Positions 3,608 through 31,840 of a DNA stretch of 64,000 nt are shown here, piece by piece. Under the pieces are notes generated by a model, which worked only from the letters and a program-made list of their open reading frames with translations, was not told where the DNA came from and made no database searches. The position numbers and the translations under genes are program-made. The stretch's first letter is position 1. Every line of letters begins with the position of its first letter. The DNA is taken from positions 186,001 to 250,000 of the forward strand of contig NZ_RBLJ01000001.1 in NCBI RefSeq assembly GCF_003634575.1, in the 5' to 3' direction. The DNA is from Photorhabdus asymbiotica. GTDB lineage: Bacteria > Pseudomonadota > Gammaproteobacteria > Enterobacterales > Enterobacteriaceae.

Positions 3608-3609
3608 AC

Positions 3610-4929: not shown

Positions 4930-4968
4930 TCAATAAATGATGACACACTCAAATTTGTTTAATCGCCT

Positions 4969-4978: not shown

Positions 4979-5039
4979 TCACCTCTTTACTCATTAAAAT
5001 ACATAATAAATTAATTTAAAGATTAAGGTGTGAGCATTT

Positions 5040-6011
5040 ATGTATAAAACAAATGGAACAATCCTGGATGTGCCAGGTATCAAGGTTGGACATGCTGAAG
5101 ATGAATTAAAACAAACCGGTTGCAGCGTCATTATTTTCAACGACGGCGCTGTTTGTGGTGTTGATGTCAGGGGTTCTGCACCGGGAACAAGGGAAACCGA
5201 GCTTTTAGATCCCATTAATATCATTCAAAAAGTCAACGCAGTGGTGCTAAGTGGCGGTAGTGCTTTTGGATTGGATTCCGCCTCTGGCGTCATGCGCTAT
5301 CTTGAAGAAAGAAAAAAAGGTCTTGATGTCGGTGTCACTGTCGTACCTATCGTTCCAGCCGCAATAATTTTTGATCTAAATTTTGGCGATCCTGCTGTTC
5401 GTCCTGATGCCAAGATGGGCTATATTGCAGCACAAAACGCTTCTACCAACGCTTTTCCATCGGGAAACATTGGTGCCGGTGCCGGGGCCATGATAGGTAA
5501 GATAGCTGGTTTTGACAAAGCCATGAAAGGTGGACTTGGAACAGCATCTGTTAAATTACCCGGGGGGCTAACAGTAGGCGCAATGGTTGTTGTAAATGCT
5601 GTTGGTGAAATCAGAGACCCTAAAAATGGCAAAACCATCGCAGGTGCATGTGATGAAAATGGTCATCTTATCGATCTCATTTCCTACATTTTAGAAAATT
5701 ATAAAGATCATCATTTCACTCAGGGAATAAATACGACGATTGGTATAATTTGCTGTAACGCAAATATGAATAAAAGCCAGATGAAAAAAGTTGCCCAGAT
5801 GGCTCATGATGGCCTTGCAAGGACAATATACCCGGTTCATACCATGAGTGACGGAGACACTATTTTTGCAGCGACAACAGGGGGAGTGGATTCATCGGTG
5901 AATATTGTTGGTATGCTTGCGGCTGAAGTCATGGCTGCCGCAATTTTAGATGCTGTAAAATCAGCTAAATCAAAATTTGGCGTTAGAGGTTATGCCGATT
6001 TAGCAAAATAA
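5040..6011 (+). CDS. P1 (DmpA/NylC-like) family peptidase
   Basis: The 323-residue protein has the hallmarks of the DmpA/P1 (S58) N-terminal nucleophile family: VVLSGGSAFGLDSASGVMRY, GNIGAGAGAMIGK and GGLGTASVKLPGGLTVGA. Such enzymes are made as precursors and cut themselves to expose the nucleophile. Asn231-Thr232 in INTTIGII aligns by pattern with the Asn-Thr cleavage site of 6-aminohexanoate oligomer hydrolase NylC; DmpA uses Gly-Ser. Members are aminopeptidases, beta-peptidases or amide hydrolases, so the substrate cannot be read from sequence. It has its own promoter and an AAGG ribosome-binding site. It may release amino acids for the preceding operon, but that is speculation. Confidence 0.85.
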   Translation: MYKTNGTILDVPGIKVGHAEDELKQTGCSVIIFNDGAVCGVDVRGSAPGTRETELLDPINIIQKVNAVVLSGGSAFGLDSASGVMRYLEERKKGLDVGVTVVPIVPAAIIFDLNFGDPAVRPDAKMGYIAAQNASTNAFPSGNIGAGAGAMIGKIAGFDKAMKGGLGTASVKLPGGLTVGAMVVVNAVGEIRDPKNGKTIAGACDENGHLIDLISYILENYKDHHFTQGINTTIGIICCNANMNKSQMKKVAQMAHDGLARTIYPVHTMSDGDTIFAATTGGVDSSVNIVGMLAAEVMAAAILDAVKSAKSKFGVRGYADLAK

Positions 6012-11888: not shown

Positions 11889-13232
11889 CTAAGACACATT
11901 AATAGTTCTCTGCCATTTTTCTCCAATCACTCGAAAGGTTGAAAGGACCGCTTTTACCATGTCTTCCACCATTGGTGCAGCGAAAGCCAAGAACAAAGGT
12001 AAATCTGTATAGAAAAGTACTATGTAACAAACAGGTATACCAAAGAACCATGCTGCTACCATATCTATAATGATAATAAAACGATTGTCTCCCCCACTCC
12101 TGAGGGCGCCAACGATATTTATCGTTGAAAGTGACTTGATAACAATAGTAACTAATACAATAATATAAGCATCATGAATAAAGTCGATAGACCTTTGTGA
12201 TAACTCAGGATAAAAGGATAAAATAAACCCATTTAGCAGATAGAGCAGGACTGCAAGTGGTAAAGCAAATGCCAAACCTAACACCATACACAAACGTGAT
12301 ATAACCGTGGCTCTTTCATACTCCTTTTTGCCTAACGCTTCACTTATTACGATCCCTCCGGCGATTGCAATCCCCCAATAAGAAATATGGGCTAGGTTAG
12401 TAATTGAGGAAATCACCGCAGCTGAAGCCACCAAGTCTTTGCCTTGAAAAGCAATTATTAAAGTGTATAGATTCATACTCGCCGCCCAAAGTAAAGCATT
12501 TATAGCTTGCGCACCTCCTATATTCAGCAACTCTCTAGAGGATTTGCACCTATAATTAAACTTGTAAAAGTCAAGGTACAATCCATTGTACTTTTTTAAT
12601 AGAAAGAATATGATTAGCCCTATTTCTACTAACTTTGAAAGAATTGAGCCCAATGCAGCTCCAATAAATCCAAGTCCATCCACATCAGCTATGCCAAAAA
12701 CCAAAAAATAGCTGAAAAAGATATTGGAAACAACACCACTTGCAGATATCAAAAACGCTAACGATGTGTTACCGAGCGCATTGAGAAGACCTATATAGAC
12801 TTGAATGATGGCAGACGCCAAAATTGTATATGAAATGACATCAAGGTAGTCTATTGCTTTAGAGGTGTAATCCTCCTCTCCCCAAAAAAACAAAATAACT
12901 TCTTCGTTAAACAGCTTAACAATAGAAAAAATGAAAAATGATAAAGTAAGACTAAGTACAAGCCCATTAGTCACAATCAATTTTAGAGTGTTTGGCAAGT
13001 GCTTATTTTGAGCAATTATAACTGATACTGAATTTGAGAAAGAGTAGACTACACTCAAAAAAACTAACACAATACTAGTTGCCAGTCCCATTCCAGCTAG
13101 CTCTTCTGTGCCTATATACCCAATCATTATTGTGTCGATAATTGACATCGAAGTAAACAATATCGACTGAGCCATAATCGGCAACGCAAGCTTAATTATT
13201 CGATAAGTATCAGTGGTTACGCGAGACGTCAT
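11889..13232 (-). CDS. MATE-family efflux transporter
   Basis: The 447-residue protein has about 12 hydrophobic segments in two similar halves and the MATE opening LALPIMAQSILFTSMSIIDTIMIGYIG. MATE proteins export drugs or metabolites using Na+ or H+ gradients across the inner membrane. It is the last gene of the island operon, overlaps the preceding glycosyltransferase by 4 bp (ATGA) and has GAGGCGGAA upstream. In this setting I infer that it exports the product made by the cluster and thereby also protects the producer. No modifying resistance enzyme is seen in the cluster. Confidence 0.85.
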   Translation of the reverse strand: MTSRVTTDTYRIIKLALPIMAQSILFTSMSIIDTIMIGYIGTEELAGMGLATSIVLVFLSVVYSFSNSVSVIIAQNKHLPNTLKLIVTNGLVLSLTLSFFIFSIVKLFNEEVILFFWGEEDYTSKAIDYLDVISYTILASAIIQVYIGLLNALGNTSLAFLISASGVVSNIFFSYFLVFGIADVDGLGFIGAALGSILSKLVEIGLIIFFLLKKYNGLYLDFYKFNYRCKSSRELLNIGGAQAINALLWAASMNLYTLIIAFQGKDLVASAAVISSITNLAHISYWGIAIAGGIVISEALGKKEYERATVISRLCMVLGLAFALPLAVLLYLLNGFILSFYPELSQRSIDFIHDAYIIVLVTIVIKSLSTINIVGALRSGGDNRFIIIIDMVAAWFFGIPVCYIVLFYTDLPLFLAFAAPMVEDMVKAVLSTFRVIGEKWQRTINVS

Positions 13233-14092
13233 TGGTTCCGCCTCAAAACTGATCTTTGACGAAGTACCTCTTCAATCCCCCAATATTCATGCTGTAATAA
13301 CAGGTATGTTTCATCTAGTAAATGCTTAGAGTGTATATATTCAAAGGCATTAAAGTTAGATTTCTTTTTACTGACAACGTCTTCTGATTGAGGGATATGC
13401 ATCGAAGCTGATTCAAAAACGAAACTAAATATTGCTCCCTCTTTCATAAGTCTAATACCCAACTCGATATCCTCTCCTCCCCAAGATCTGAACGACTCAT
13501 CAAATCCAGATATAGAGTTGAAGAGAGACTTGTGTATAGCTATTACCCCACCCCAGCAATACACCCATGGAGCACGTAAGTTCCGCATATCCATATCATG
13601 ATATGAAAGATGATAGATTCTAGGATCAAGAAAAGTGGAAGTTGAGATATATAGTTTTAATGCACCTTCGACTCCATAATTTTCAATATCGCTAAGAATG
13701 ATTTTCTTGTTGTCAGGGCAGTTAGTGATTCCGTAAATATTTCCTAGAGACACACAGCATTTATCACACAAAGAAGGTTCGATAATACTCGAAACAGCAT
13801 TTTTTTCTAGATATATTCCACAATCAACGAACAATAAAACTTCACCACTGGCAATCCTTGCTCCTCGGTTTCTAGCTAATGACACTTGAAATCCTTCATC
13901 CCTTTGAGAAACGACAATTATTTCATGCATGCAATTAATATTATTTACATTTATGGGCTCGTCTGAACCGTCATCAACTATCACCACCTCCAATTCAACC
14001 TTATTTGATAGTATTTGATTATCTAAAGATGCTATAGTCGATAGTAATTGAATCGTATTATTATAACAAGGAATGATAATACTGATAATCAT
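13229..14092 (-). CDS. Family 2 glycosyltransferase with galactosyltransferase-type C-terminus
   Basis: The 287-residue protein starts MIISIIIPCYNNTIQLL, followed by VVIVDDGSDEP (nucleotide-sugar binding), VSLARNRGARIASGEVLLFVD (the DxD-like region) and SWGGEDIELGIRL, the conserved motif of the glycosyltransferase 7 C-terminal domain. It is a cytoplasmic GT-A enzyme, and donor and acceptor cannot be read. It resembles the enzyme at 17689 in layout (APWVY/APWVF, then WGGEDI), so the two are paralogs that probably attach different sugars. It sits between the inositol-phosphatase and exporter genes. Confidence 0.85.
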   Translation of the reverse strand: MIISIIIPCYNNTIQLLSTIASLDNQILSNKVELEVVIVDDGSDEPINVNNINCMHEIIVVSQRDEGFQVSLARNRGARIASGEVLLFVDCGIYLEKNAVSSIIEPSLCDKCCVSLGNIYGITNCPDNKKIILSDIENYGVEGALKLYISTSTFLDPRIYHLSYHDMDMRNLRAPWVYCWGGVIAIHKSLFNSISGFDESFRSWGGEDIELGIRLMKEGAIFSFVFESASMHIPQSEDVVSKKKSNFNAFEYIHSKHLLDETYLLLQHEYWGIEEVLRQRSVLRRNQ

Positions 14093-14103
14093 AATAAGCC
14101 AGC

Positions 14104-14889
14104 CTAAAATATCTCACTTTTAATCATTTTTACAATATCATGCCTACCACATATTAATGCTTGAGCACTGCTTATATCACTAAAAGAATAATGTACCTGA
14201 AAGCCTGCCTCCTTTAATATAATATATCCCGCTGCGACATCCCATTGATACAAATTTAGCTCAAAGAACGCAAGCAGACGGTTTGCAGCAACGTATGACA
14301 TACAGAGAGCTGCGCTACCATTTCTATAGGGCAAGTAGCCAAACTCAAGTAAACTTGTTAATACTTTTGAAATTTTCCTCTTGTCATCACGATAAGACGT
14401 ACCAAACGCTAAGTAAGGCATAGGACTATGCTCCTGCTCTACAAACGGCTGGGCGCTTGCAGATAATCTTGTGGAATTTAAGAAAGCTCCTTGAGCATGG
14501 TAAGCACTAAAACATTCTTTACGAATTGGATCGTAAATTAAACCAAATAATATGCTGCCTTTCCTAAAGGCAGCAATAGATATACACCATCCAAACACAC
14601 CTGTGGAAAAGCTATGAGTTCCGTCAATTGGATCAATTAGCCAGATATATTCGCTTGTATCTGTAAAGTGATGAAAGGAAGACTCTTCAGAAACAATCGT
14701 ATCACTAGGAAATATATCTGAAATGGAGCTTTTTATATACTCATCTACAATCAGGTCAGCACTGGTAAGCACATCTCCTTCTTTTTTATGTTCACATATA
14801 AAAGCTAGGTTGTTGAACATTTCTAGTGCAATATTTCCTGCATCTGCAATAACTTGCTTGGCATGTACAAACCTTTCATCCTTTAGCAT
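14104..14889 (-). CDS. Inositol monophosphatase family protein
   Basis: The 261-residue protein has the metal-binding motifs of the family: EES (VSEESSFHH), LIDPIDGTHSFSTG (usual form DPxDGTxNF) and WDVAAGYIILKEAG. Members remove phosphate from inositol phosphates, 3'-phosphoadenosine compounds or fructose bisphosphate. With an inositol-phosphate synthase gene two genes upstream, the obvious role is hydrolysis of myo-inositol-1-phosphate to free myo-inositol. It could alternatively dephosphorylate a later phosphorylated intermediate, as known in some aminoglycoside routes. The length is normal for the family. Confidence 0.85.
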   Translation of the reverse strand: MLKDERFVHAKQVIADAGNIALEMFNNLAFICEHKKEGDVLTSADLIVDEYIKSSISDIFPSDTIVSEESSFHHFTDTSEYIWLIDPIDGTHSFSTGVFGWCISIAAFRKGSILFGLIYDPIRKECFSAYHAQGAFLNSTRLSASAQPFVEQEHSPMPYLAFGTSYRDDKRKISKVLTSLLEFGYLPYRNGSAALCMSYVAANRLLAFFELNLYQWDVAAGYIILKEAGFQVHYSFSDISSAQALICGRHDIVKMIKSEIF

Positions 14890-14895
14890 ACTTCT

Positions 14896-16587
14896 CTACT
14901 TCCTATGAATGAGATAGTTATCTATAATTAAAAAATCCAGCTTGCTTTCCCTATAGAAATTAATCGCATCTTCGGGAGTTTCTACAATGGGAGTGTCCTT
15001 GCCATTAAAGGAGGTATTCAGCAAAATTGGGACATCTGTAAGTTTGTAGAACTCATTAATAAGATTATAGTAGTTTCTGTTTAATTCTCTAGTCACTGTT
15101 TGAACGCGAGCAGTTCCATCGACATGTACTACCGCACCAATTTGCTCTGATTTCTCCGGTATTACTTGTGAAACCTTGATCATATAATCGCTATCTTCAT
15201 TGCCAGGCTTAAAGAAGTCTGAATACCTATCCTTTAAAATTGAAGGCGCGAATGGACGAAATTCTTCACGATTCTTGATTGCAATGTTGATATAATCAAG
15301 CATCTCTTTTCTTCTTGGATCAGCTAATATACTCCTGTTCCCCAAAGCCCGAGGTCCAAATTCAGATCCCTTTCTAAAACACCCGACTACCTTTCCCTCA
15401 CTAATATGCTTTGCGACAACTTCTTCCAAATTACCCGGCTTAGTTATTACATAGTTGTCATCCAAGTATTTGCATAGACTAGACTCAGAGGTATCATACT
15501 TTATGCCAAAATATGGGTTTCCATTAAATGGGACTTTTTCTTTATTAAGTACTTTCATCCAACCGTAATAACATGCTCCTATTGCAAGGCCATTATCACC
15601 AGCAGCTGGCTGAATATAAACATTCTTGAATGGCGTATTCTGCGTTATTTTACCATTAGCTACCGCGTTTAGTGCTAATCCACCCGCATAACATAAGTTA
15701 TCTGACGAGTACATTTCGTAGTATTCATTAAGCAGATAAAATAAAGCTTCTTCAGTTTGTTCTTGCACCCATTTAGCTAAATCAGCACAATACTGGAAAT
15801 TATCCTTGATGTTTGTATCTTTTAGGCCCAAGTTCTCAATTAGATCATAGTTTATCTTGACCCTGGCATCCTTCATCAGAAATAGTTCGCCCGAGAATCT
15901 TCCACTTTTACCATATGGTGCCAAGCCCATTAATTTGCCTTCGTTGAAGTCGTTACCGAATACAAACTTACTTGCACCTCCATATAGCCCACCTATGGAA
16001 TGTTCGATATCATAAGGCGCAATTTTATATCTATTTAGGTCATTAAAATTAAATCTTGAGTAATCTTTAAATACTGGTATTACATTATTATTAAAGAATT
16101 TATAGTAGCTCTCCTTTTCAAAATAGTCGATATAGTCCGATTTAGATAATTTTGCTATATCGCTGGGAACTAGTCTTATGTCATGATCTAGGCAACTATC
16201 AATACTTCCTCCCATGCCATCGCATACAATCACGGCAGACTCTGAAAATGGAGAAGTGCCAACTGCACTGTATGCGTGCGCAATATGGTGACCAATTCTA
16301 ACAATGGGGAGGTACTCAGGTATAATTCTACCTCGACGTTTGATTACATCATCAGGCTTGTGTTTTTCATTTACCGTATATTTCTCAACAAATAGATCTA
16401 CATCCTTAAAAGTGATTCCTGCTGCGTTTAAGCAATACCTTATAGCATCATTATCATTAAATCCATCATGCTTAATCTTCGTGAGCCTTTCTTTTTCAAT
16501 ACCAACGATGATCTTACCATTCTTCATTAAGCATGCTGATCCGTCATGTGATAACCCAGAACCTAAAACATAAATTGGCTTGTTCAT
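14896..16587 (-). CDS. O-carbamoyltransferase (NodU/CmcH/TobZ family), short form
   Basis: The 563-residue protein has the Kae1-like N-terminal domain (VLGSGLSHDGSACLMKNGK, then GIEKERLTKIKHDG; metal ligands in RIGHHIAHAYSA and VCDGMGG) and the YrdC-like C-terminal domain (EFGPRALGNRSILADPR, ILLNTSFNGKDTPIVETPEDA). The family makes carbamoyl adenylate from carbamoyl phosphate and ATP and transfers the carbamoyl group to a sugar hydroxyl. The start at 16587 follows GAGGGGAACT; a TTG at 16599 overlaps that site. It is the first of two different carbamoyltransferases in the operon. Confidence 0.88.
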   Translation of the reverse strand: MNKPIYVLGSGLSHDGSACLMKNGKIIVGIEKERLTKIKHDGFNDNDAIRYCLNAAGITFKDVDLFVEKYTVNEKHKPDDVIKRRGRIIPEYLPIVRIGHHIAHAYSAVGTSPFSESAVIVCDGMGGSIDSCLDHDIRLVPSDIAKLSKSDYIDYFEKESYYKFFNNNVIPVFKDYSRFNFNDLNRYKIAPYDIEHSIGGLYGGASKFVFGNDFNEGKLMGLAPYGKSGRFSGELFLMKDARVKINYDLIENLGLKDTNIKDNFQYCADLAKWVQEQTEEALFYLLNEYYEMYSSDNLCYAGGLALNAVANGKITQNTPFKNVYIQPAAGDNGLAIGACYYGWMKVLNKEKVPFNGNPYFGIKYDTSESSLCKYLDDNYVITKPGNLEEVVAKHISEGKVVGCFRKGSEFGPRALGNRSILADPRRKEMLDYINIAIKNREEFRPFAPSILKDRYSDFFKPGNEDSDYMIKVSQVIPEKSEQIGAVVHVDGTARVQTVTRELNRNYYNLINEFYKLTDVPILLNTSFNGKDTPIVETPEDAINFYRESKLDFLIIDNYLIHRK

Positions 16588-16601
16588 AGTTCCCCTCAAA
16601 C

Positions 16602-17687
16602 TTAAAGCATATGTTTTGGTACTTCAAAGGCAGCTAGCTTTTGACACTCAGAAATGGCCTCTTCGATTTTCAACTGCACAGGAGGCGTTTTTTGAGTCCA
16701 TGCTGAAGGACCTTTTAAGGCACCTTTTAGCCCCATGTCTCTAGCAATCTTCAAATAACGTATAGCATCAATCACAACACCAGCTGAATTCTCAGAATCT
16801 TGCACCGATAATTTAGTGTCAATTTCGACTTTGCTTCCGCCAAATCCGGTAAGTTCCAAACGTATATGCGCTACCTTGTTATCTTTCAAATAAGGTATAT
16901 AAGTCGATGGTCCGGCAAAAATAGAATCCTCGTGAACATCCACTCCGGCAATTTCATTTTGACTTCTAATAACGTTCTCTTTCGAGATTTTTTTGGATGT
17001 TAATCTCTCTTGAACCATCATATTATTGAAATCAGTGTTTCCTCCAATATTAATTTGCTGGTGATAGTCAACAGTTAGATTTCTTGAGAATGCTAATTCC
17101 TGGTATACTTGCGACAAGATTGACGCACCTAAATGACTTTTCATATCATCACCTATGATAGGGATGCCTTTATTGTAGAACTTTTTGTCCCACTCCGGAT
17201 CAGACGCTATGAAAACTGGAATACAATTAAGCAACGAAACACCAGACTCCAAACAACATTCGGCAAGGTACTCGGTAGCCTTTTGAGAGCCAACAGGCAA
17301 ATAGTTTATCAATATATCTATTTCGTTTTCTTTAAGGCTAGAAACCAAGTCAATTGGTTTTTGAGTGTTAGAAACGCGAAACCCGCGATCTTCAGGTTGA
17401 TTACTCATATACAGAGATACACCATCAAAAACTTCAATTTTCTCGACAATCGGACCTTCTGGCAAATCGGTACAGAATACCCTCGCACAATTGGGCTTTG
17501 CAAAAATTGCTTTTGATATTGGTAAGCCAACTTTCCTACAATCAACATCATATGCAGCTTTCACATTGATATCTTTGATTGAAACACCTAGATCATTAAT
17601 TATTGGATCGCTATCTAAATGAAAATAAATCCCTTGATAGAGAGACGAACAGCAATTTCCAACACCTGCAATAGCAACGTTAATCAT
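16602..17687 (-). CDS. myo-Inositol-1-phosphate synthase family protein
   Basis: The 361-residue protein starts INVAIAGVGNCCSSLYQGIY, the NAD-binding GxGNxxS loop of inositol-3-phosphate synthases. It has the family signatures INYLPVGSQKATEYLAE, VFIASDPEW, GDDMKSHLGASILSQVY and NIGGNTDFNN. It would cyclize glucose-6-phosphate to inositol phosphate in the cytosol. The length fits short bacterial forms. Such synthases are uncommon in enterobacteria, which supports transfer. It supplies the cyclitol ring for the pathway encoded by this operon. Confidence 0.88.
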   Translation of the reverse strand: MINVAIAGVGNCCSSLYQGIYFHLDSDPIINDLGVSIKDINVKAAYDVDCRKVGLPISKAIFAKPNCARVFCTDLPEGPIVEKIEVFDGVSLYMSNQPEDRGFRVSNTQKPIDLVSSLKENEIDILINYLPVGSQKATEYLAECCLESGVSLLNCIPVFIASDPEWDKKFYNKGIPIIGDDMKSHLGASILSQVYQELAFSRNLTVDYHQQINIGGNTDFNNMMVQERLTSKKISKENVIRSQNEIAGVDVHEDSIFAGPSTYIPYLKDNKVAHIRLELTGFGGSKVEIDTKLSVQDSENSAGVVIDAIRYLKIARDMGLKGALKGPSAWTQKTPPVQLKIEEAISECQKLAAFEVPKHML

Positions 17688-17688
17688 A

Positions 17689-18546
17689 TTAAAAATCCTT
17701 TTCGTTAGTATTTTTTGAAATTATTAAATCATTTAATTTAAATATATTCTCTTCTTTTATAAGCCAATCTGTCATTTCATGACTATACTTCTCAGAAATA
17801 TACTTTTTATTTTCTAAATTGGTCTTATAGTTTTCATCATCTTCTTCTGGATGAGACAGATGTACACCTTCTATCCCCTCAAACAAATGAAATTGAGAAT
17901 TAGCTTTGTGAAGCCGGAAACCAAGATCAATATCTTCACCACCCCATGATTTAAAGTGTTCATCAAAACAGCCCACTTTTTCAAAAAGTTCTTTTTCTAC
18001 ACTAAATATTGTTCCCCATAAGAAAACCCAGGGTGCTGGCATGGAACATAATTTATAGTTGAACCTCGCATACGAGCTTTGACGAATATCTTTGCCAACA
18101 CTCAGTTCTTCCATCCTTTTAATTGTGCTGTCTACATCATCTAGGTCAACTTTTAGATCCCATTTATTCTCAGAGTACAGACCGTACACATTTCCAATCG
18201 AAACTGATTGTGGATTAGAACTATGGAACTTGATCACGCTCTTCACAAAATAGCTTGGCAAAAGTACGTCAGCATCAACAAAAGCTAGTAGCTCCCCTTT
18301 TGCATTTTTAGCCCCAATATTTCTCGCTCGGGCTACACGGAAACCTTCGTCAGGTACATATATATACTTGAATTTATAGTTGTAAACTCGTTTAGTAACA
18401 GCGAGGCAAGTCTCATCGCTAGAACCATCATCTACAACTATTACTTCGAAGTCATTAAAGTCCGCACTTTGCTTGTCCAGTAAAGAAAGCAAAGACATTA
18501 AACTTTCTTTTTTGTTATAAGAAGGGATGATTATACTTAGGGTCAT
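17689..18546 (-). CDS. Family 2 glycosyltransferase with galactosyltransferase-type C-terminus
   Basis: The 285-residue protein starts MTLSIIIPSYNKKESLMSLL, with VIVVDDGSSDET, ARARNIGAKNAKGELLAFVD and SWGGEDIDLGFRL. It is a paralog of the enzyme at 13229, with the same domain order and a similar length. The final 40 residues are rich in Lys and Asn and look flexible. It starts after an AAGGAA ribosome-binding site, 11 bp from the previous gene, and ends 1 bp before the inositol-phosphate synthase start. The sugar donor is probably a housekeeping nucleotide sugar, because no NDP-sugar biosynthesis genes lie in the island. Confidence 0.85.
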   Translation of the reverse strand: MTLSIIIPSYNKKESLMSLLSLLDKQSADFNDFEVIVVDDGSSDETCLAVTKRVYNYKFKYIYVPDEGFRVARARNIGAKNAKGELLAFVDADVLLPSYFVKSVIKFHSSNPQSVSIGNVYGLYSENKWDLKVDLDDVDSTIKRMEELSVGKDIRQSSYARFNYKLCSMPAPWVFLWGTIFSVEKELFEKVGCFDEHFKSWGGEDIDLGFRLHKANSQFHLFEGIEGVHLSHPEEDDENYKTNLENKKYISEKYSHEMTDWLIKEENIFKLNDLIISKNTNEKDF

Positions 18547-18557
18547 AAATACGTTCC

Positions 18558-19499
18558 TTATTCCTTAATCTTACTTTTTATTTCAAGAAAAGAAGCTTTA
18601 AAATTATGCATATCTGATAGAATATAGCTCCCTTGTAGAGATAAACAATTATTTAATCTGTTTAGGAACTCTTCAATAACTTCATTAATATTGAAATAAG
18701 CACCAAATTTTTCAGTATATGAATTCATTGAGATTATAAATCCTTCAATATCGTTTTTATACTTTTCTTCCAAAAAGGTATTAGGACGATGCACAGAATT
18801 TCCTTTAAATCTATATTTAAATGGAATGTCTTCTAGTACTTTAATAAATGCTCCATCCGCAACCATATTCATCCAAGTGACATGATCTTCCGAAACTGAA
18901 AAGTCTGGGAATGGACATCTAAGTGCCAAGTCAACATTGACTGCCGTGCCTGATGTCGGAAATATGTACCCACAGTGCCTTATCATATCGAGGTATTTAT
19001 TGCTTCCTTCTGGAGTATACCGACTATGCTGGACAGCGACATCGAGCATATCACTCCTAAAGTTTTCGAGAGAAACCGGATTACCATTTCCATCAATTCC
19101 AGTAAAGGTTGTACTAATAATTAAATCTGATTGACTAATTTGTTCTGCAATACATAACGTTTTCTCTACACGATATGGATGCGCAATATCATCATCGTCC
19201 TGAAAAAAAATGATATTAGCACCGTGTTTGTAAGCATACTTGACGCCAATATTTCTTGCTGACGATACCCCTCCCCTCTTCTCATTAACTATAAAATGAA
19301 ATCTATTATCAATTATATCGTTCGGAAAATAGTCCTTTATTCTGACATTCAATCGATCATAGAAACTTGAATTATCATCCACTATTACAACACACCAATC
19401 TGGGGTTGACTGAGCATGTATTGAAAATAAGGTTTCAATCAGGTAATCATTACCTCGCTTACTCTTTGCATGATGAGGAATTACAAACCAACTTGACAT
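18558..19499 (-). CDS. Family 2 glycosyltransferase
   Basis: The 313-residue protein is a GT-A fold enzyme: SSWFVIPHHAKSKRGNDYLI, VVIVDDNSSFYDRLN, SSARNIGVKYAYKHGA and the acidic metal/nucleotide site FFQDDDDIAHPYRVEKTL. It lacks the WGGED C-terminal motif of the other two transferases and has VSEDHVTWMNMVADG in the acceptor region instead. It overlaps the 3' end of the aminotransferase gene by 19 bp. It is the third transferase of the operon, so a product with up to three glycosyl attachments is possible. Its specificity cannot be assigned. Confidence 0.83.
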   Translation of the reverse strand: MSSWFVIPHHAKSKRGNDYLIETLFSIHAQSTPDWCVVIVDDNSSFYDRLNVRIKDYFPNDIIDNRFHFIVNEKRGGVSSARNIGVKYAYKHGANIIFFQDDDDIAHPYRVEKTLCIAEQISQSDLIISTTFTGIDGNGNPVSLENFRSDMLDVAVQHSRYTPEGSNKYLDMIRHCGYIFPTSGTAVNVDLALRCPFPDFSVSEDHVTWMNMVADGAFIKVLEDIPFKYRFKGNSVHRPNTFLEEKYKNDIEGFIISMNSYTEKFGAYFNINEVIEEFLNRLNNCLSLQGSYILSDMHNFKASFLEIKSKIKE

Positions 19500-20710
19500 T
19501 TATGTGCAACCTTATTTATTTCTTTTGCAAAATCAACTATCCAATCTTCCGATTGAAGTAACACTTGATGAGGGAACGCCATTGTTCGATTGTAAAAATT
19601 CTCAGCACCTGGAAGCTTATAACTTATACTATTCAGTCTTTCGAAATGGCTATAATACTTGTTTCTATCAACTCGACTTGGTTGGTAGAGTGGATTGTTA
19701 TTTAAAGGTTTATCAAGCCTTTCAAAAGGTATTCGATATTTCTCTGAGAAATAGTTCGATATTGCTTGTGCTTGTTCATCTTTAACTTCACAATTGAAGT
19801 CAACGACACAACGCCAATATACTCTTTGATCAATATTTTCGTCTGCATCAAGGATATTACATATTTTATTTTTTCTAAGGCAGTCATCAAGAATCATGGC
19901 GTTTAAACGTCGCTTTTCGTTCTCGCCATCTAATCTTTTCAGACCGTTTAACAAAATGGCACACTGCATCTCAGTAATGTTGTAGTTCCTTCCTTGCACT
20001 TCTCCATTACCGGAAATAACCATAAGATTTCTTGGATTTACGCTATCAGTTTTAGCTCTCCCATCCATCATCAAATTTTGTATTATGGAATAGTAAACAT
20101 CCGAGCTAGTAGCAATAATCCCACCTTCTCCACTAGTAAGTAGTTTTGATTGCTGGGTAGAAAATACAGATATATCAAAAAAAGAGCCAGCCTTCTTTGA
20201 TTTCCACGTCGCCCCATGGCTTTGTGAACAATCTTCAATAACTTTTAAACCATATTTATTTGCAATAGCACCAATTTTTTTCACATCTACCATGCCGCAA
20301 TAAGCATGTACCAAAATAATGGCTTTGGTGTTCTGGGTAATATTCTCTCGTATTGCCTTCTCTGATATTTGTCCGGTTAAAGGATCAATATCAGTCAAAA
20401 CGGGAATAGCACCTAGATTATATACAACTTGGGCAACTGCAACCCAAGTCATACCTGGTACTATGACTTCATCTCCAGGCAAGATACCTATGGTTTCAAG
20501 AGCGATGGATAACGCCGCTGTTCCAGAAGTGCATGGAATAGCGTGTTTAATACCTATGTAGTCTGCCCATCTTCTTGAGAAAAGAGTACTAAAGTATGGC
20601 AATGTTTCAGACTGGCCTGACAACGTCCAACGCGTAGATCTAAGTGCTCCTTCTACATCAGTTAATAGGTCAACATCGCACACCGGCCAATTCATCTCAA
20701 AAGGTTTCAT
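19481..20710 (-). CDS. DegT/DnrJ/EryC1/StrS aminotransferase
   Basis: The 409-residue PLP enzyme has Lys189 as the Schiff-base lysine in STQQSKLLTSGEGG. Other motifs are PCTSGTAALSIALE, VIVPGMTWVAVAQ, VIEDCSQSHGA and NYNITEMQCAILL. The opening WTLSGQSETLPYF and the QQ-K-LTSGEGG context resemble aminotransferases that aminate scyllo-inosose or 2-deoxy-scyllo-inosose (StsC/BtrR type), which use glutamine as donor. With inositol-forming and inositol-oxidizing genes beside it, formation of scyllo-inosamine is the best guess. A strong AGGAGG precedes the start. Confidence 0.85.
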   Translation of the reverse strand: MKPFEMNWPVCDVDLLTDVEGALRSTRWTLSGQSETLPYFSTLFSRRWADYIGIKHAIPCTSGTAALSIALETIGILPGDEVIVPGMTWVAVAQVVYNLGAIPVLTDIDPLTGQISEKAIRENITQNTKAIILVHAYCGMVDVKKIGAIANKYGLKVIEDCSQSHGATWKSKKAGSFFDISVFSTQQSKLLTSGEGGIIATSSDVYYSIIQNLMMDGRAKTDSVNPRNLMVISGNGEVQGRNYNITEMQCAILLNGLKRLDGENEKRRLNAMILDDCLRKNKICNILDADENIDQRVYWRCVVDFNCEVKDEQAQAISNYFSEKYRIPFERLDKPLNNNPLYQPSRVDRNKYYSHFERLNSISYKLPGAENFYNRTMAFPHQVLLQSEDWIVDFAKEINKVAHKCQVGL

Positions 20711-20718
20711 ACATCCTC

Positions 20719-22674
20719 CTATAACACCAAATTTAATAGCCTTTTGCTTAACAACCGTTTGTAGGCACTTATGATATCGCCTTCTCGAATACGTCCATCA
20801 AGTAGAAGTTGACTAATTGTTTTAATGCCATCAGCGACATCAAAACAGGACAACTCTGTCTCTGTAACCCGCTCGCTGTATGTTGCTATATTGATGTAAT
20901 ATGAACAGGATTCACTTGTAGCTTTTTTGATAGTAGTTACAAACTCTTTTTTTATTGGTCGCAATAACTCGTATAGCTTATCACCACGAATTCTTTTCTT
21001 AATAATGAAATCGCCGACAACCAAATAGTCCAAGTCTGTAAGTAAAAAGCATTGTATAGCATCATACGCATCACATACAATTGGCTCCGCATTTACATTA
21101 AATGAGGTATTCAATAAAACAGGAACCCCTGTAATTTCTTTAAAATTCTTTATTAGCTGGTAGATGTCTTTATTATATTCTCCAACAGCTTGAACTCTCG
21201 CTGTATTGTCTATATGTGTTATAGCTGCAAGTTTTTGTTGGTTTTCTTTAACAACCGGGAGATTAAATACCATATACTCCAAGTTCACTTTACAATCTGG
21301 AACTAGGAACCAATCTGAAATTTCATCCACCAACACCATGGGTGCAAATGGGCGATAGGACTCTCTCTGCTTAATAATTCGATTAGTTCTATATTTTGAT
21401 TCAATAGGTCTGGGATCAGCTAGAATACTACGACCACCAAGAGCTCTTGGACCATATTCCATTCTACCTCTAGCCCATCCTATTATCTTGCCATTACTAA
21501 TTTCATTCGCAAGAAACTGAAACTCATCTTCAGCATTAATAACTTCTATGATATCTTGATTTCTATCTATTATTTCAAGCGCATGTTTACTATTTATATC
21601 GGGTCCTAAGTAAACATTGTCGAGTTTATTTCCATTAATCCTAGCGTCAGGATACATTGCGCACATAGCTGCACCGACAGCACTTCCACCATCGTGTGAG
21701 GCCGGATGAACAAAAATATTATCAAACAATTCGCTAAAGGCGAGCTTTCCGTTCAATGTACAGTTTAGAGCTACCCCACCACTGAGACATAGATTTCTTT
21801 GATTTAGCTTCTTTGACCAGAAAGATATTATATGAAATGCCATCTTTTCCAAGTATTTTTGTATGGAATGCGCAAAATTTTGATGACTTTTTGAAATATA
21901 TTCATTTTCTCTTCTTGGCAAGATACCTCTATCTAAAAAGTAAGCAAGTATATTTGTATGATTAAATGAAACCTTTCCACCTTTTTCAAAATTTATAAGT
22001 TCTTCGAAAAGTTCATCAAATTGATTTTGTTTGCCATAGGAAGCCAACCCCATTACCTTATACTCATCAAATCGTTCATATCCTAGTAAAGATATACAAT
22101 CGAGATAATATCTTCCCAGTGATGAAGAAACTGGATATCTATATATACTTCTAACAACCCCATCGATATATGAGTAGATTGATGTAGACTCATCTTCTCC
22201 ATTTCCATCTATTATGACAACTAATGAACTATCGAAGCCAGAGTTTTCAGCCGCCATGATCGCGTGGGTGTCATGATGACGTACATATTCAATTGGGATA
22301 TCTTTAACTTCTTCACCAAATTTACGCACAAGTATCTTGTTAATTAAACTTCTAGAAGTTTCGACCTCGAGACTTTTTCTTTCAATATATTGTAAGCCAA
22401 GTCCAGTATCTGTATTTAACTCTTCAAAATAAAATGCAATTTTGTCAACATCAGTTATTTCAACTTGTGCTATTTTTAAGCACTCAACAATGGCGTCAAT
22501 AGGAAACTGATTAGAGTGTTTAATCCTATCCAGACGCTCTTGTTCCACAGCCGCAACAACCTTACCATCTTTGATGATTGCAGCTGAGGCATCATGACCA
22601 AACCAATTTGGTATATCCCCAATAACAGGTATTTCAAATGTTTCGAAACTACCGCTAATCCCTAGAGTTATCAT
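20719..22674 (-). CDS. O-carbamoyltransferase (NodU/CmcH family), long form
   Basis: The 651-residue protein has the two-domain carbamoyltransferase fold: WFGHDASAAIIKDGKVVAAV and EQERLDRIKHSN, YVRHHDTHAIMAAENSG, VIIDGNGEDES, CLSGGVALNCTLNGKL, MEYGPRALGGRSILADPRP and PVLLNTSFNVNAEPIV. About 80 residues at the C-terminus (from around KKRIRGDKLYELL) extend past the usual end and are predicted helical; their role is unknown. It differs strongly from the 563-residue enzyme, so two distinct carbamoylation steps are likely. It overlaps the preceding dehydrogenase gene by 4 bp and has AAGGAG upstream. Confidence 0.88.
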   Translation of the reverse strand: MITLGISGSFETFEIPVIGDIPNWFGHDASAAIIKDGKVVAAVEQERLDRIKHSNQFPIDAIVECLKIAQVEITDVDKIAFYFEELNTDTGLGLQYIERKSLEVETSRSLINKILVRKFGEEVKDIPIEYVRHHDTHAIMAAENSGFDSSLVVIIDGNGEDESTSIYSYIDGVVRSIYRYPVSSSLGRYYLDCISLLGYERFDEYKVMGLASYGKQNQFDELFEELINFEKGGKVSFNHTNILAYFLDRGILPRRENEYISKSHQNFAHSIQKYLEKMAFHIISFWSKKLNQRNLCLSGGVALNCTLNGKLAFSELFDNIFVHPASHDGGSAVGAAMCAMYPDARINGNKLDNVYLGPDINSKHALEIIDRNQDIIEVINAEDEFQFLANEISNGKIIGWARGRMEYGPRALGGRSILADPRPIESKYRTNRIIKQRESYRPFAPMVLVDEISDWFLVPDCKVNLEYMVFNLPVVKENQQKLAAITHIDNTARVQAVGEYNKDIYQLIKNFKEITGVPVLLNTSFNVNAEPIVCDAYDAIQCFLLTDLDYLVVGDFIIKKRIRGDKLYELLRPIKKEFVTTIKKATSESCSYYINIATYSERVTETELSCFDVADGIKTISQLLLDGRIREGDIISAYKRLLSKRLLNLVL

Positions 22675-23810
22675 AAGAAGAATCTCCTTACCCTTGATGA
22701 AAATAATTCGATATCTAATAGCGTCTCATTCATTTTAGTAAGCGGCCTAAATTTACTATTCGTCATTATAGTTTCTATGATATTGATGGACTCCAAAGAC
22801 CGTTTAATATCAAGTAAAGGTTCTAATTTGTAATTTAGTGAAGTGGCTAAGTCTAAGACGCCAGTAGCTTGGTCAATAAAGTGAGTATCATCATATCTTC
22901 TGTCTATCTTGTGAGGGTGAAGCATTTTTCTTAGAGAAAAGTGTTCTGGTGGGCGGTCGATTTTATCTTCTTTATTCTTCCTTAAAATTATTGGAGAGTT
23001 CGCCATCCATAAATCTTCAACTATTATTTCACCTTCATCTCCAATTATCCGAAAGCTATGATTCTCACTTTCAACAATGCTGAGCTCAACTTTTGCTCTT
23101 CTACTATCACCATACTCCAAAGTAAGATCAATCCAATCAGGGGCAGGTGAATCTGTAACCTCTTTATCCGGGTAGATTAAGGCTGAGCTATAGCTCATGC
23201 TATCTGGCGTCCCCATTAAAGCCAGAATTAGGTCAATCACATAAGAGCCATGTTCAAAACCACAACCAACTTCAAATTCATTCTTTGCCGGCCAAGGTGC
23301 GCCTGAAGGACTAATCCAACTACCAAAATTCATTTTATGAACTGGCCCCTCATGAATAGCACTTTTAATTAAACGTATTTCTCCAATCTCGCCAGAACTC
23401 AATATCTCTATTACCTTGATGATTGGAGGATTTAATAATAAGGAAGGTGAGCTTGTTATAATACAGTTATTATTTTTGGCAACTTCTACCAATTTTCTTG
23501 ATTCTTTAATACTCATAGTAAATGGCTTTTCACTGTATACTGAAACTCCATTAGCTACGGCTTCCAGTGACACATTGTAGTGCTCTTCTGGATTCGTCAA
23601 GTTTAGCAATATATCAACATTTGCATTTTCTAACGCATCGCTTACCGAAGAGTAAGCACCGAAACTATGATAGTTTGAGAAATCTTCAAGCCGATTTCTA
23701 TCTCTATCAACACAGCCAACAATATTTAGGCATTCATAGTCATTAAGATTTGACACATAGAAATCTGCTGCATAACCACAACCAACAATTAGAATATTTG
23801 ACTTTTTCAC
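22671..23810 (-). CDS. Gfo/Idh/MocA-family dehydrogenase, likely inositol 2-dehydrogenase type
   Basis: The 379-residue protein starts KKSNILIVGCGYAADFYVSN (NAD-binding loop) and has the catalytic-region motif YSEKPFTMSIKESRKLVE (the family's EKP) and FEHGSYVIDLILALMG. Members oxidize inositols and related sugars. As the first gene of the operon, next to inositol-phosphate synthase, inositol phosphatase and an aminotransferase, it plausibly oxidizes myo-inositol to scyllo-inosose before transamination. A GGAGGTGAGG ribosome-binding region precedes the ATG. Sugar-nucleotide oxidation is an alternative activity in this family. Confidence 0.82.
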   Translation of the reverse strand: MKKSNILIVGCGYAADFYVSNLNDYECLNIVGCVDRDRNRLEDFSNYHSFGAYSSVSDALENANVDILLNLTNPEEHYNVSLEAVANGVSVYSEKPFTMSIKESRKLVEVAKNNNCIITSSPSLLLNPPIIKVIEILSSGEIGEIRLIKSAIHEGPVHKMNFGSWISPSGAPWPAKNEFEVGCGFEHGSYVIDLILALMGTPDSMSYSSALIYPDKEVTDSPAPDWIDLTLEYGDSRRAKVELSIVESENHSFRIIGDEGEIIVEDLWMANSPIILRKNKEDKIDRPPEHFSLRKMLHPHKIDRRYDDTHFIDQATGVLDLATSLNYKLEPLLDIKRSLESINIIETIMTNSKFRPLTKMNETLLDIELFSSRVRRFFL

Positions 23811-26878: not shown

Positions 26879-27319
26879 ATGTATCAAACCCATGACTACC
26901 ACAGAATTAATGGCTGGATTCTGGCTCCAGCGGCTTATCTGATCATGACATTTCTCAGCGCCAGTGTCATGTTGGGCTTATACATTATGGCTTTTTTCAG
27001 TCAAAACAATATGTTGGGTAGCACAACTAATCACTTTACGCTAATGTGGTTTCTTTCCGTCGCCATTACTGCGGCAATGTGGTGCTTTACCCTATGGGTA
27101 CTCAAACTGCTTTTTATTCGGTCAAAAAGATTCCCTCAAACTTTTATTATTTGGCTTATTGTTACCGTATTAATTGCATTGAAAACTTTCACCTTTTCCC
27201 CTATCCCCGATCAAATGGCTTTACGTGCATTAGCATGGCCATTACTGGCAGCCGCTATTTTTGTCCCCTACATTAAACGTTCTCATCGGGTCAAAATGAC
27301 TTTCACACAAGATCGATAA
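26879..27319 (+). CDS. ydgK: Inner-membrane protein YdgK (DUF2569)
   Basis: The 146-residue protein has four predicted membrane segments (for example ILAPAAYLIMTFLSASVMLG and ALAWPLLAAAIFVPYI) and the INGWILAPAAYL start typical of the YdgK/DUF2569 family. It lies directly upstream of rsxA, as in E. coli. Its function is unknown. It has no partners in the sequence that suggest more, and the gap of about 108 bp to rsxA contains a weak hairpin. Confidence 0.85.
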   Translation: MYQTHDYHRINGWILAPAAYLIMTFLSASVMLGLYIMAFFSQNNMLGSTTNHFTLMWFLSVAITAAMWCFTLWVLKLLFIRSKRFPQTFIIWLIVTVLIALKTFTFSPIPDQMALRALAWPLLAAAIFVPYIKRSHRVKMTFTQDR

Positions 27320-27356
27320 CCGCAACTTTCTTTGGTTGTTATCATAAATAATAGAT

Positions 27357-27379
27357 TGCCCTTCAGTAAGACGAGGGCA
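27357..27379 (+). terminator. Weak hairpin after ydgK
   Basis: TGCCCT (27357-27362) pairs with AGGGCA (27374-27379), followed by TGTTTATAATTTT. It may separate ydgK from the rsx operon. Confidence 0.35.
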
Positions 27380-27427
27380 TGTTTATAATTTTATAAAAAG
27401 TAAACAACTCCATTTTCAGGCACAGCA

Positions 27428-28009
27428 ATGACTGACTATTTTCTTTTATTTGTTGGAACCGTATTGGTTAACAATTTCGTCTTGGTGAAATTTCTCGGCT
27501 TATGTCCTTTTATGGGCGTCTCTAAAAAGCTGGAAACTGCCATCGGGATGGGATTTGCAACAACATTCGTTATGACACTAGCCTCAGTGTGTTCATGGCT
27601 GGTGAATACGTTTATTTTGTTACCACTGGATTTAATCTATTTGCGTACCCTGAGTTTTATTCTGGTCATTGCGGTTGTCGTGCAATTCACAGAACTTGTT
27701 GTACGCAAAACCAGCCCAACGTTATACCGGCTGTTGGGTATTTTCCTGCCGTTGATTACAACTAACTGTGCCGTACTCGGTGTCGCACTGCTGAATATCA
27801 ACCAATCACACGATTTTCTTCAATCTGCTATTTATGGATTTGGGGCTGCCGCAGGTTTCTCTTTGGTTATGGTACTGTTTGCCGCTATTCGTGAACGTCT
27901 GGCCGTTGCCGACGTGCCAGCTCCCTTCCGGGGTTCATCTATCGGTCTTATCACCGCGGGTTTAATGTCCCTGGCTTTTATGGGCTTTAGTGGTTTGGTG
28001 AAGTTCTGA
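27428..28009 (+). CDS. rsxA: Electron transport complex subunit RsxA
   Basis: The 193-residue protein has six membrane segments and the RsxA/RnfA opening [20 protein letters not shown], then [20 protein letters not shown] and [14 protein letters not shown]. It is an inner-membrane subunit of the Rsx (Rnf) complex, which moves electrons between NADH and low-potential acceptors and keeps SoxR reduced in E. coli. Its stop overlaps the start of rsxB by 1 bp. Length and sequence are canonical. Confidence 0.95.
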
Positions 28010-28626
28010 TGATATCGTTATGGATTGCTATTGGTGCGCTAAGTGCACTAGGGTTAATTTTTGGTTTAATCTTGGGTTTTGCTGCCCGCCGTTTTCAAGT
28101 AGAAGAAGACCCTATTGTTGAAAAAGTAGATAATATTCTGCCTCAAAGTCAGTGCGGCCAATGTGGTTATCCTGGCTGCCGACCTTACGCCGAAGCCGTG
28201 GCTAACAACGGTGAAATGATTAATAAATGTGCACCCGGCGGGGAACAAGCAATGCTGAAAATCTCAGAATTGCTGGGTGTCGATCCACAGCCACTGGAAG
28301 GAGATGAAAGCGTACAAAATCCTGTCCGTAAAGTCGCATTTATTGATGAAGAGAATTGTATTGGTTGTACCAAATGTATTCAGGCATGCCCTGTAGATGC
28401 TATCGTCGGCGCGACCCGTGCTATGCATACCGTCGTTGAAGATCTCTGTACCGGTTGTGACCTATGCGTTGCCCCTTGTCCTACAGACTGTATTGCGATG
28501 ATCCCGGTGGCAACGACCACTTCCAATTGGAAATGGGATTTGAAAACCATTCCAGTAAAAAATATTCCTGTTCAGCCATCTCATGCTGTTTCCGTTAAAA
28601 ATATTGAGGCTGAACACCATGTTTAA
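28009..28626 (+). CDS. rsxB: Electron transport complex subunit RsxB (iron-sulfur)
   Basis: The 205-residue protein has an N-terminal membrane anchor ([20 protein letters not shown]). A four-cysteine cluster site follows, CGQCGYPGC with a later Cys (INKCAPGG). Two ferredoxin-type 4Fe-4S sites are [16 protein letters not shown] and [16 protein letters not shown]. It carries electrons within the Rsx complex. The final codons overlap the rsxC start by 8 bp, so translation is coupled. Confidence 0.95.
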
Positions 28627-30739
28627 TTTGTTCAATTTACTCAACAAAAACAAAATCTGGGATTTCGACGGTGGAATTCATCCCCCAGAAATGAAGCTAC
28701 AATCCAGTCAAACACCATTGCGCATTGCACCACTGCCAGAAGAGTTAATCATCCCATTGCAACAACATTTGGGAACAGAAGGCGAATTACTGGTTAAAAC
28801 AGGTGATAAGGTGCTGAAAGGTCAGTCTCTGACATTTGGCTATGGTCGTAGCGTACCAGTCCATGCATCGACTTCCGGCACAATCATTGCTATTGAACCT
28901 TGCATTACAGCGCATCCGTCCGGATTGAAAGAATTATGTGTTCGCCTACGCCCTGATGGTGAAGATCAATGGTGTGAGCGCATTCAGACACCTGATTATC
29001 AATCCCTTGGCGCGGAGACAATTCTTAATCGAATCCATCAGGCAGGTATCGCTGGTTTAGGGGGCGCTGGTTTTCCGACTGCTTCTAAACTTCAAAGTGG
29101 CCGTTCTGGTATTAAAACACTGATCATTAACGCCGCAGAATGCGAACCTTATATTACCGCTGATGACCGTCTAATGCAGGAACACGCAGATGAACTGATT
29201 GAAGGAATTCGTATTCTGGAACATCTGCTTAAACCTGAGCAAATACTGATTGGTATCGAAGATAATAAACCCGAAGCAATAGCAGCTCTTAAAACCGCAT
29301 TAAAGGGCGATAAAACTATCATCGTTCGGGTTATCCCAACCAAATACCCTTCTGGTGGTGCAAAACAACTGACCAAGATCTTAACAGGTAAAGAAGTGCC
29401 ATCCGGTGGCCGTTCCTCCGCTATCGGTGTTCTGATGCAGAACGTCGGCACAGTAGTTGCGATTAAACGAGCCATTATTGATGGCGAACCCTTGATTCAG
29501 CGTGTGGTTACCGTCACTGGTGACAACGTAACTTCTCCCGGTAATTTCTGGGCACGACTCGGTACTCCAGTTCAATTTCTTCTCCAGTTAGCCGGTTTTG
29601 AACCCCAATCAGAGCAGATGGTCATTATGGGTGGTCCGCTAATGGGATTCACTCTACCTGACTTGAACGTACCTGTTGTCAAAATCAGTAACTGTATTCT
29701 GGTGCCATCTCACCAAGAAATGGATGCAAATACTGCGGAAGAAGCGTGTATCCGTTGTGGATTATGTGTGGAAGCTTGTCCCGCTAGTTTATTACCACAA
29801 CAACTTTACTGGTTCAGTCGTGGTCAAGAGCATGAAAAAGCTCGCAATCACAACTTATTCGACTGTATCGAATGTGGTGCCTGTGCTTATGTCTGTCCAA
29901 GTAACATTCCTCTAGTGCAATACTATCGCCAGGAAAAAGCTGAAATTAAAGCATTGGATCAGGAAAACCGCCGTTCAACAGAAGCCAAAATTCGTTTTGA
30001 AGCTAAGCAAGCGCGTATGGAACGGGAAAAACAGGCTCGTGAAGAAAGGCACAAAAAAGCAGCGATTCAAGTCGATAATAAAGATCAAAATACTGTACAA
30101 GCTGCGCTCTCCCGTGTGAGGGAAAAACAGGCTGACGCCGGCAAAATTGTTTCCATAGAACCGGGACAAGTGCCAGATAATTCAGCAGTAATCGCTGCCC
30201 GACAGGCGAGAAAAGAGCAACTTCGTGCTCGCCAGGCGGAAAAACAAACGGCTGAAAATATTCATACTGCTACATCTGAGCAAACAGGAGCAGAAGATCC
30301 ACGTAAAGCGGCATTAGCAGCAGCAATTGCCAGAGCTAAGGCTAAGAAAGCGGCTCAGAATCAAGAGGTGACAACGTCACCAGAAATAGCAGAACCTGAA
30401 TCTACAACCGGTGAAAAACCAGATCCCCGTAAAGATGCGGTGGTAGCGGCAATTGCCCGGGTTAAAGCCAAGAAAGCGGCTCAAACTCAGCAAACAGAGG
30501 AAACCCCGACAGAAGTTCCACCCGCCGAGGAAACTGATCCGCGCAAAGCGGCGGTCGCTGCCGCCATTGCCCGGGTTAAAGCCAAGAAAGCGGTTCAAAC
30601 TCAGCAAACAGTGGAAACCCCGGCAAACGCGCCACCAACCGAGGAAACTGATCCGCGCAAAACGGCGGTTGCTGCCGCAATCGCCAGAGTCAAAGCTAAG
30701 AAAGCGGCTCAGGAACAACAAAAAATTTCAACAGAATAG
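28619..30739 (+). CDS. rsxC: Electron transport complex subunit RsxC
   Basis: The 706-residue protein starts [20 protein letters not shown], matching E. coli RsxC ([17 protein letters not shown]), which fixes the start at 28619 rather than 28583. It has the flavin/NADH-binding region [13 protein letters not shown] and [14 protein letters not shown], two 4Fe-4S motifs ([30 protein letters not shown]) and a long Lys/Ala-rich tail. From residue about 560 the tail contains four DPRKxAxxAAIARxKAKKA repeats. It is the peripheral NADH-side subunit. Confidence 0.95.
30296..30720 (+). repeat. In-frame tandem repeats in the RsxC tail
   Basis: Repeat units of the [18 protein letters not shown] type begin at 30296, 30422, 30536 and 30650. 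The last two intervals are exactly 114 bp, while the first is 126 bp. The repeats form charged helices in the C-terminal tail. Confidence 0.85.
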
Positions 30740-30751
30740 TGATTGTTATAA

Positions 30752-31831: not shown

Positions 31832-31840
31832 GGAGCCGTT

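Follow-up and report, generated by a model that had tools for sequence, protein, structure and literature searches.

Aminocyclitol glycosides, which include ribosome-binding antibiotics and glycosidase inhibitors, are made mostly by actinomycetes. The inositol-derived aminoglycosides, such as fortimicin/istamycin, streptomycin, and spectinomycin, depend on a ketocyclitol aminotransferase and on glycosylation. The actinomycete pathways leading to them contain further tailoring and resistance genes, and we know of none with two carbamoyltransferases. Boholmycin and myomycin are carbamoylated pseudo-oligosaccharides with inosamine, and they also contain guanidino groups or amino acid side chains. 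An operon of ten genes was recognized at 11889..23810 of a 64,000-nucleotide stretch of the Photorhabdus asymbiotica genome (contig NZ_RBLJ01000001.1, positions 186,001 to 250,000), hereafter called the window. Like the inositol-derived aminoglycoside pathways, it has a predicted ketocyclitol aminotransferase and glycosyltransferases; it has no genes for guanidino groups or amino acid side chains. The operon was probably acquired horizontally, and its gene content suggests that it probably makes and exports a carbamoylated glycosyl-inosamine, an aminoglycoside-like secondary metabolite.

The operon consists of ten near-contiguous open reading frames (ORFs) on the minus strand, in which neighbouring frames overlap at three places (by 4, 19, and 4 bases) and are otherwise separated by 1–11 bases (six gaps). 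In the order of transcription, they encode a dehydrogenase (DH), an O-carbamoyltransferase (CT_B), an aminotransferase (AT), two glycosyltransferases (GTa and GTb), an inositol-3-phosphate synthase (MIPS), a second O-carbamoyltransferase (CT_A), an inositol-monophosphatase-family phosphatase (IMP), a third glycosyltransferase (GTc), and a MATE-family exporter. All ten proteins exceed the curated cut-offs of Pfam, and the exporter also passes the model TIGR00797 (180.5 bits against a cut-off of 147.4). These results confirm the ten genes, the exporter among them, of an original prediction made on the same DNA, which had proposed a doubly carbamoylated aminocyclitol glycoside.

Inositol supply, oxidation, and amination

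MIPS scores 272.7 bits with the inositol-3-phosphate synthase 1gr0 and 166.3 bits with the five-membered-cyclitol synthase 6k96, and by these scores a function as a five-membered-cyclitol synthase was rejected. An enzyme making a carbocycle from glucose-6-phosphate, as is characteristic of aminocyclitol-aminoglycoside clusters, is therefore present, and the originally proposed route from glucose-6-phosphate to inositol stands. Among 149 sampled genomes of the family, a MIPS match was found only in the genome of the window itself. Thus, the operon carries its own inositol supply, based on an enzyme that is rare in the family. IMP (Inositol_P, 151 bits) aligns with SuhB-type inositol monophosphatases and keeps both of their motifs, in agreement with the proposed inositol phosphatase; its substrate is probably inositol phosphate.

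AT scores about 231 bits with three 2-deoxy-scyllo-inosose aminotransferase sequences in the PDB, 147 bits with the next family, and 88 bits with NtdA. In a tree of 13 proteins, which is a small sample, AT forms a clade (support 100/99) with BtrR and with the enzymes from Sodalis, Streptomyces, Streptomyces sp. BB1-1-1, and another genome of the class (G190). This clade is set apart from six other DegT proteins of the same genome and from a second DegT protein of BB1-1-1. The Sodalis enzyme comes from a locus with a 2-deoxy-scyllo-inosose synthase, and the Streptomyces enzyme adjoins an annotated inosamine-phosphate amidinotransferase. The AT lysine is aligned with that of BtrR. On the basis of its clade, AT is predicted to be a glutamine:ketocyclitol aminotransferase of the kind expected in aminocyclitol clusters, as the StsC-like assignment had it, and its position outside the group of the genome's other DegT proteins argues against an enzyme using only nucleotide sugars. 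At E 1e-60, AT matched two of 369 genomes of the class, its own and G190. The G190 enzyme (locus L041) is found beside SDR, ATP-grasp-like, and lysine-2,3-aminomutase-like proteins, named by eye from their translations.

The proposal that the Gfo/Idh/MocA protein is an inositol dehydrogenase was not supported. DH scores 38.7 bits with the inositol 2-dehydrogenase model TIGR04380, whose cut-off is 355, and aligns at 18% over 140 residues with the IolG protein of the same genome. This IolG is encoded elsewhere in the genome and scores 456.7 bits, above the curated cut-off, and scyllo-inosose may therefore come from IolG. A plasmid search with DH at E 1e-30 gave eight records. The three relatives whose surroundings were inspected lie near glycosyltransferases: that of BB1-1-1 adjoins a relative of GTa, that of Ruegeria adjoins a glycosyltransferase, and that of Komagataeibacter is two genes away from a family-25 glycosyltransferase. 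Invariant columns, including S-G-A-P-W-P and E-H, are common to DH and these three relatives. When the PDB was searched with a profile of the DH alignment, general Gfo/Idh enzymes appeared near the top, and scyllo-inositol dehydrogenases were about equal to sugar 3-ketoreductases, both middling at about 50 bits (among the best 60 of 76 matches). It is more likely that DH acts on a sugar, and possible that it acts on inositol. Among 295 genomes of the order, a DH match at E 1e-40 was found in two, its own and G828.

Carbamoylation, glycosylation, and the proposed pathway

The N- and C-terminal Pfam domains of carbamoyltransferases are found twice in the operon (136/221 and 156/208 bits). CT_A and CT_B both keep these domains and the HHxxHA, DG, GPRALG, and NTSFN motifs, which places them in the TobZ/NodU/GdmN family and bears out the presence of two different carbamoyltransferases. 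CT_B scores 457 bits with GdmN, 433 with the novobiocin enzyme, and 220 with TobZ. Its partners in a tree of ten sequences (support 99/96) are enzymes encoded on two symbiotic plasmids of rhizobia and on one Agrobacterium plasmid. One rhizobial relative sits between a nodI/permease pair and nodZ, distinct from nodU, and judging from position the rhizobial plasmid relatives are likely to be NolO. In the same tree, in which long branches were flagged, CT_A joins the enzymes of BB1-1-1 and Piscinibacter loosely (90/89 and 86/88). Separately, the Agrobacterium salinitolerans plasmid pDG3-1c (L040) has, beside an ABC transporter gene, a glycosyltransferase with a carbamoyltransferase on either side (566 and 661 aa), which, judged from its genes, is another small double-carbamoylation locus.

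Glycos_transf_2 is found in three operon proteins (55.5, 85.1, and 61.3 bits), so that the glycosyltransferases expected in an aminocyclitol cluster are present in the number originally given. Two of the three, GTb and GTc, are paralogues with about 33% identity. Their relatives are also found on Serratia, Agrobacterium, Rhizobium, and Martelella plasmids, and thus GTb and GTc are not specific to aminoglycosides. The D-x-G sequence of GTc was considered as a sign of a dead active site and this was dropped, since D-x-G is common to five of six relatives from other organisms. A search with GTa at E 1e-20 gave no match among 296 genomes from the phylum to which G527 belongs; it had no positive control and is uninformative alone.

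The Streptomyces sp. BB1-1-1 plasmid NZ_CP134205.1 carries, in the region of about 324–368 kb, genes corresponding to DH, GTa, AT, and CT_A, all four in a stretch of about 15 kb. It is the one matching record for GTa at E 1e-15 among 72,556 plasmids, and the only DH match with coverage above 80% in the search at E 1e-30. Among the best 30 of 219 plasmid matches to AT, the BB1-1-1 protein ranks first on the product of coverage and identity and second on bit score (233, against 260 for Sodalis). CT_A is the weakest of the four links, with 34% over 596 residues in direct comparison with the BB1-1-1 carbamoyltransferase.

From the observed families, clade positions, motifs, and selection, we infer a pathway with its substrates, order of steps, product, and number of carbamoyl groups. 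MIPS would convert glucose-6-phosphate to myo-inositol-3-phosphate, from which IMP would remove the phosphate to leave myo-inositol. The 2-hydroxyl would be oxidized by the IolG of the genome or by DH, and AT would add nitrogen from glutamine to the resulting scyllo-inosose. The product of this step would be scyllo-inosamine, which is the aglycone of fortimicin according to a passage of PMC11405602. With nucleotide sugars as donors, GTa, GTb, and GTc would attach as many as three hexoses or hexosamines, and DH may instead oxidize a sugar ring. CT_A and CT_B would each carbamoylate one hydroxyl, CT_B probably on a sugar, and the MATE-family protein would export the product.

Table 1. Genes of the Photorhabdus asymbiotica operon in transcription order, with positions in the window.
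Gene	Assignment	Position	Strand	Basis
DH	Gfo/Idh/MocA-family dehydrogenase, operon gene 1	22671..23810	-	GFO_IDH_MocA 70 bits; distant from IolG; SGAPWP/EH clade
CT_B	O-carbamoyltransferase, 651 aa, NolO-position type	20719..22674	-	Pfam; GdmN 457 bits; tree 99/96; motifs
AT	DegT-family predicted ketocyclitol aminotransferase (StsC/BtrR type)	19481..20710	-	DegT 256 bits; 231 bits to 2-deoxy-scyllo-inosose aminotransferases; tree 100/99
GTa	GT2-family glycosyltransferase	18558..19499	-	Pfam; single plasmid match, Streptomyces BB1-1-1
GTb	GT2/GT7C-type glycosyltransferase	17689..18546	-	Pfam; chondroitin synthase 97 bits
MIPS	Inositol-3-phosphate synthase	16602..17687	-	Inos-1-P_synth 84 bits; 1gr0 272.7 bits
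CT_A	O-carbamoyltransferase, 567 aa	14896..16599	-	Pfam; motifs; tree
IMP	Inositol-monophosphatase-family phosphatase	14104..14889	-	Inositol_P 151 bits; both motifs aligned with SuhB
GTc	GT2/GT7C-type glycosyltransferase, GTb paralogue	13229..14092	-	Pfam; 33% to GTb
MATE	MATE-family exporter, final operon gene	11889..13232	-	MatE 131 bits; TIGR00797 180.5 against cut-off 147.4

Distribution, selection, and alternative explanations

Over 12 kb, the DNA is 94% identical to that of Photorhabdus luminescens DSM 3368, in agreement with the genus Photorhabdus. Among 12 genomes of the genus, MIPS is full-length in two (its own and, at 97%, G154, which is apparently DSM 3368), fragmentary in one (G155), and without a match in nine. 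A scan of genome contigs, which requires exact short peptides and may miss distant copies, revealed 30 MIPS loci: DSM 3368, Xenorhabdus stockiae DSM 17904 (94%), and 28 others at 57–72% (best segment). Of the 28 distant loci (L008-L035), 16 are labelled Candidatus Saccharibacteria and the others are from actinobacterial, patescibacterial, or unnamed bins. The MIPS proteins of these contigs are nearer to the operon MIPS than the second MIPS of the genome is. No other operon gene was found by tblastn in the DNA around them, save weak glycosyltransferase matches in L016 and L025. A DNA-level search of plasmids gave no match.

All ten ORFs are open in the genome of the window. In DSM 3368, DH and CT_A are each split over two frames while the remaining eight genes are open; this is a draft genome, and the frame breaks may be sequencing errors. 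Homopolymer slippage as a source of phase variation at these two breaks was rejected, as no run of at least 6 bases is present in the stretches inspected. In X. stockiae, a transposase-like ORF (named by eye) interrupts CT_A, AT and IMP are frame-broken, GTa is 8 residues short, five operon genes are open, and DH would fall past the contig start. In 19.9 kb of G155, GTb is open and GTa and MIPS are present in pieces; the adjoining symporter, ydgJ, and rnf genes are the ones also found in the window. The ratio of nonsynonymous to synonymous substitution rates (dN/dS) is 0.054–0.271 against DSM 3368 in all ten genes, and 0.064–0.297 against X. stockiae in all nine genes present. The operon is under purifying selection, yet it has been repeatedly lost.

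Several points weigh against a glycosyl-inosamine as the product. DH is unlike inositol dehydrogenases in sequence, and its relative in G828 sits in a polysaccharide-like locus (judged by eye from translations). The identity of AT to its clade-mates is only 32–36%, and thus its ketone substrate could differ; the program also flagged the AT branch as long. A plasmid search with CT_A at E 1e-60 gave two other records, BB1-1-1 not being among them, and the aminoglycoside-like cluster of BB1-1-1 is itself uncharacterized. Pfam revealed no kinase, acetyltransferase, or 16S rRNA methylase for self-resistance among the ten genes, only the exporter; a self-resistance gene is thus absent from the operon unless the exporter serves as one. 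Cluster-borne self-resistance is usual, not universal, in aminocyclitol-aminoglycoside clusters. The operon has no recognizable deacetylase, if N-acetylglucosamine (GlcNAc) is used. No metabolite of the operon is known, and the operon is broken or fragmentary in three of the four carriers found. The frame breaks of DSM 3368, the insertion and breaks of X. stockiae, and the fragments of G155 could mean that it is a decaying remnant making nothing today, here as in its relatives. This is very unlikely in view of the ten open ORFs, the dN/dS values well below 1, and the kept motifs.

The absence of a clear inositol dehydrogenase gene from the cluster and the location of DH relatives near glycosyltransferases would also fit another product, in which the aglycone is plain inositol and DH and AT aminate an attached sugar. 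The product would then be a carbamoylated amino-sugar inositol glycoside and not an inosamine. In gentamicin biosynthesis, as described in part of PMC5461906, GenD2 and GenS2 aminate C3'' of the glycoside gentamicin A2 in this manner. However, AT groups with ketocyclitol aminotransferases, and the IolG of the genome offers inosose; the amino-sugar product is considered unlikely. A locus for the decoration of a surface polysaccharide or glycolipid with inositol and carbamoyl groups is quite improbable. GTb does resemble chondroitin synthase, a polymerase (97 bits), and the locus of the G828 relative of DH points the same way, but no Wzy-type polymerase, Wzx flippase, or lipid-linked initiating sugar-phosphate transferase was found among the ten genes by Pfam. 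In addition, the exporter scores above the cut-off of the MATE model, AT does not cluster with the remaining DegT proteins of the genome, and the operon matches the natural-product-like cluster of an actinomycete, BB1-1-1. A close match to a characterized surface-polysaccharide locus, which would have contradicted the original prediction, did not appear in the searches made. A kanosamine-type (NtdABC) or azasugar pathway, in which a dehydrogenase, an aminotransferase, and a phosphatase act on a sugar phosphate, shares these three reaction types with the operon. To our knowledge, neither pathway uses MIPS, and the azasugar aminotransferase and dehydrogenase belong to families other than those of AT, a DegT protein, and DH. 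Three-gene azasugar clusters are reported in Photorhabdus in a portion of PMC8382821, but AT scores 231 bits with ketocyclitol enzymes against 88 with NtdA, and such a pathway is hardly conceivable here. A carbamoylated glycosyl-inosamine is thus retained as the probable product.

The operon is AT-rich, with a GC content of 0.366, against 0.452 at 26879-36000 (the rnf flank) and 0.455 at 1272-6011. No tRNA gene was found in the window with ARAGORN, and a promoter scan performed no better than with shuffled sequence (44 found, against a shuffle mean of 50.7). At 36665-61891, the window contains contractile-injection-system genes (tail tube, sheath, baseplate, tape measure, AAA ATPase, and Pvc16). 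After these come genes whose domains resemble those of toxins or effectors, along with one for a protein that has Tc-toxin and RHS repeats.

The same genome contains a second cluster (contig C4, ~738900-750300; L044:8920-19217 and L051:7-807). It includes a MIPS gene (40% to the first), a SurE-type phosphatase, a carbamoyltransferase, a PF01941-type S-adenosylmethionine synthetase, a DegT aminotransferase, NUDIX, SDR, and unassigned genes. Its DegT aminotransferase groups with the second BB1-1-1 aminotransferase (100/99). A search with the first MIPS did not find this cluster in the other 11 genomes of the genus.

Comparison with known systems

No account of the operon was found in the literature searched by Photorhabdus/Xenorhabdus, pathway, and product names, a weak negative, as most subscription journals were outside the search; the names boholmycin and myomycin were not found in any relevant paper there. 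In the portion of PMC9491552 consulted, antiSMASH 5.1.2 gave five 'amglyccycl' clusters in Photorhabdus, from P. thracensis, P. tasmaniensis, P. australis, and P. cinerea, and a count of 0 for P. luminescens DSM 3368. Since DSM 3368 carries the operon, with two frame breaks, the antiSMASH 5.1.2 rule set seems to miss this type.

With ten genes, such a compact pathway in an enterobacterial symbiont of insects would lend itself to deletion and to expression as a whole, and it predicts a recognizable mass signature, a pseudo-oligosaccharide bearing one or two carbamoyl groups. The operon is also relevant to the question of what Photorhabdus employs within the insect. It is possible, if rather doubtful, that a portable aminoglycoside-type pathway, equipped with an inositol synthase and with two carbamoyltransferases that are each specific for a position, passed from an actinomycete-like source to the insect-associated Photorhabdus and Xenorhabdus, where it would yield an undescribed dicarbamoylated glycosyl-inosamine, and that the product of the second cluster is related to this compound or forms a part of it.

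The carbamoyltobramycin enzyme TobZ, which works on a 2-deoxystreptamine scaffold, belongs to the same O-carbamoyltransferase family as CT_A and CT_B. NodU and NolO of nodulation-factor synthesis are also of this family, and CT_B groups with the enzyme at the NolO position. Nod factors are lipo-chitooligomers, unlike the product proposed here. In the relevant part of PMC5080398, the site of action on GlcNAc is given as C-6 for NodU and C-3 for NolO.

The BB1-1-1 cluster also has weaker matches to GTb and GTc. Its further genes include a kinase that the annotation assigns to the aminoglycoside phosphotransferase family and a dehydrogenase that scores 116 bits with the IolG model, short of the cut-off. 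It is far larger, with condensation, carrier, and AMP-binding proteins, an argininosuccinate-synthase-like gene, and ABC exporters, and to judge from the annotation its product may be a glycoside that contains amino acid parts. Unlike the operon, it has no annotated MIPS in the stretch read. The individual reactions of the proposed pathway are known already; what is unusual in the Photorhabdus operon is its compact make-up, the built-in inositol supply, the carbamoyltransferase pair, and the host.

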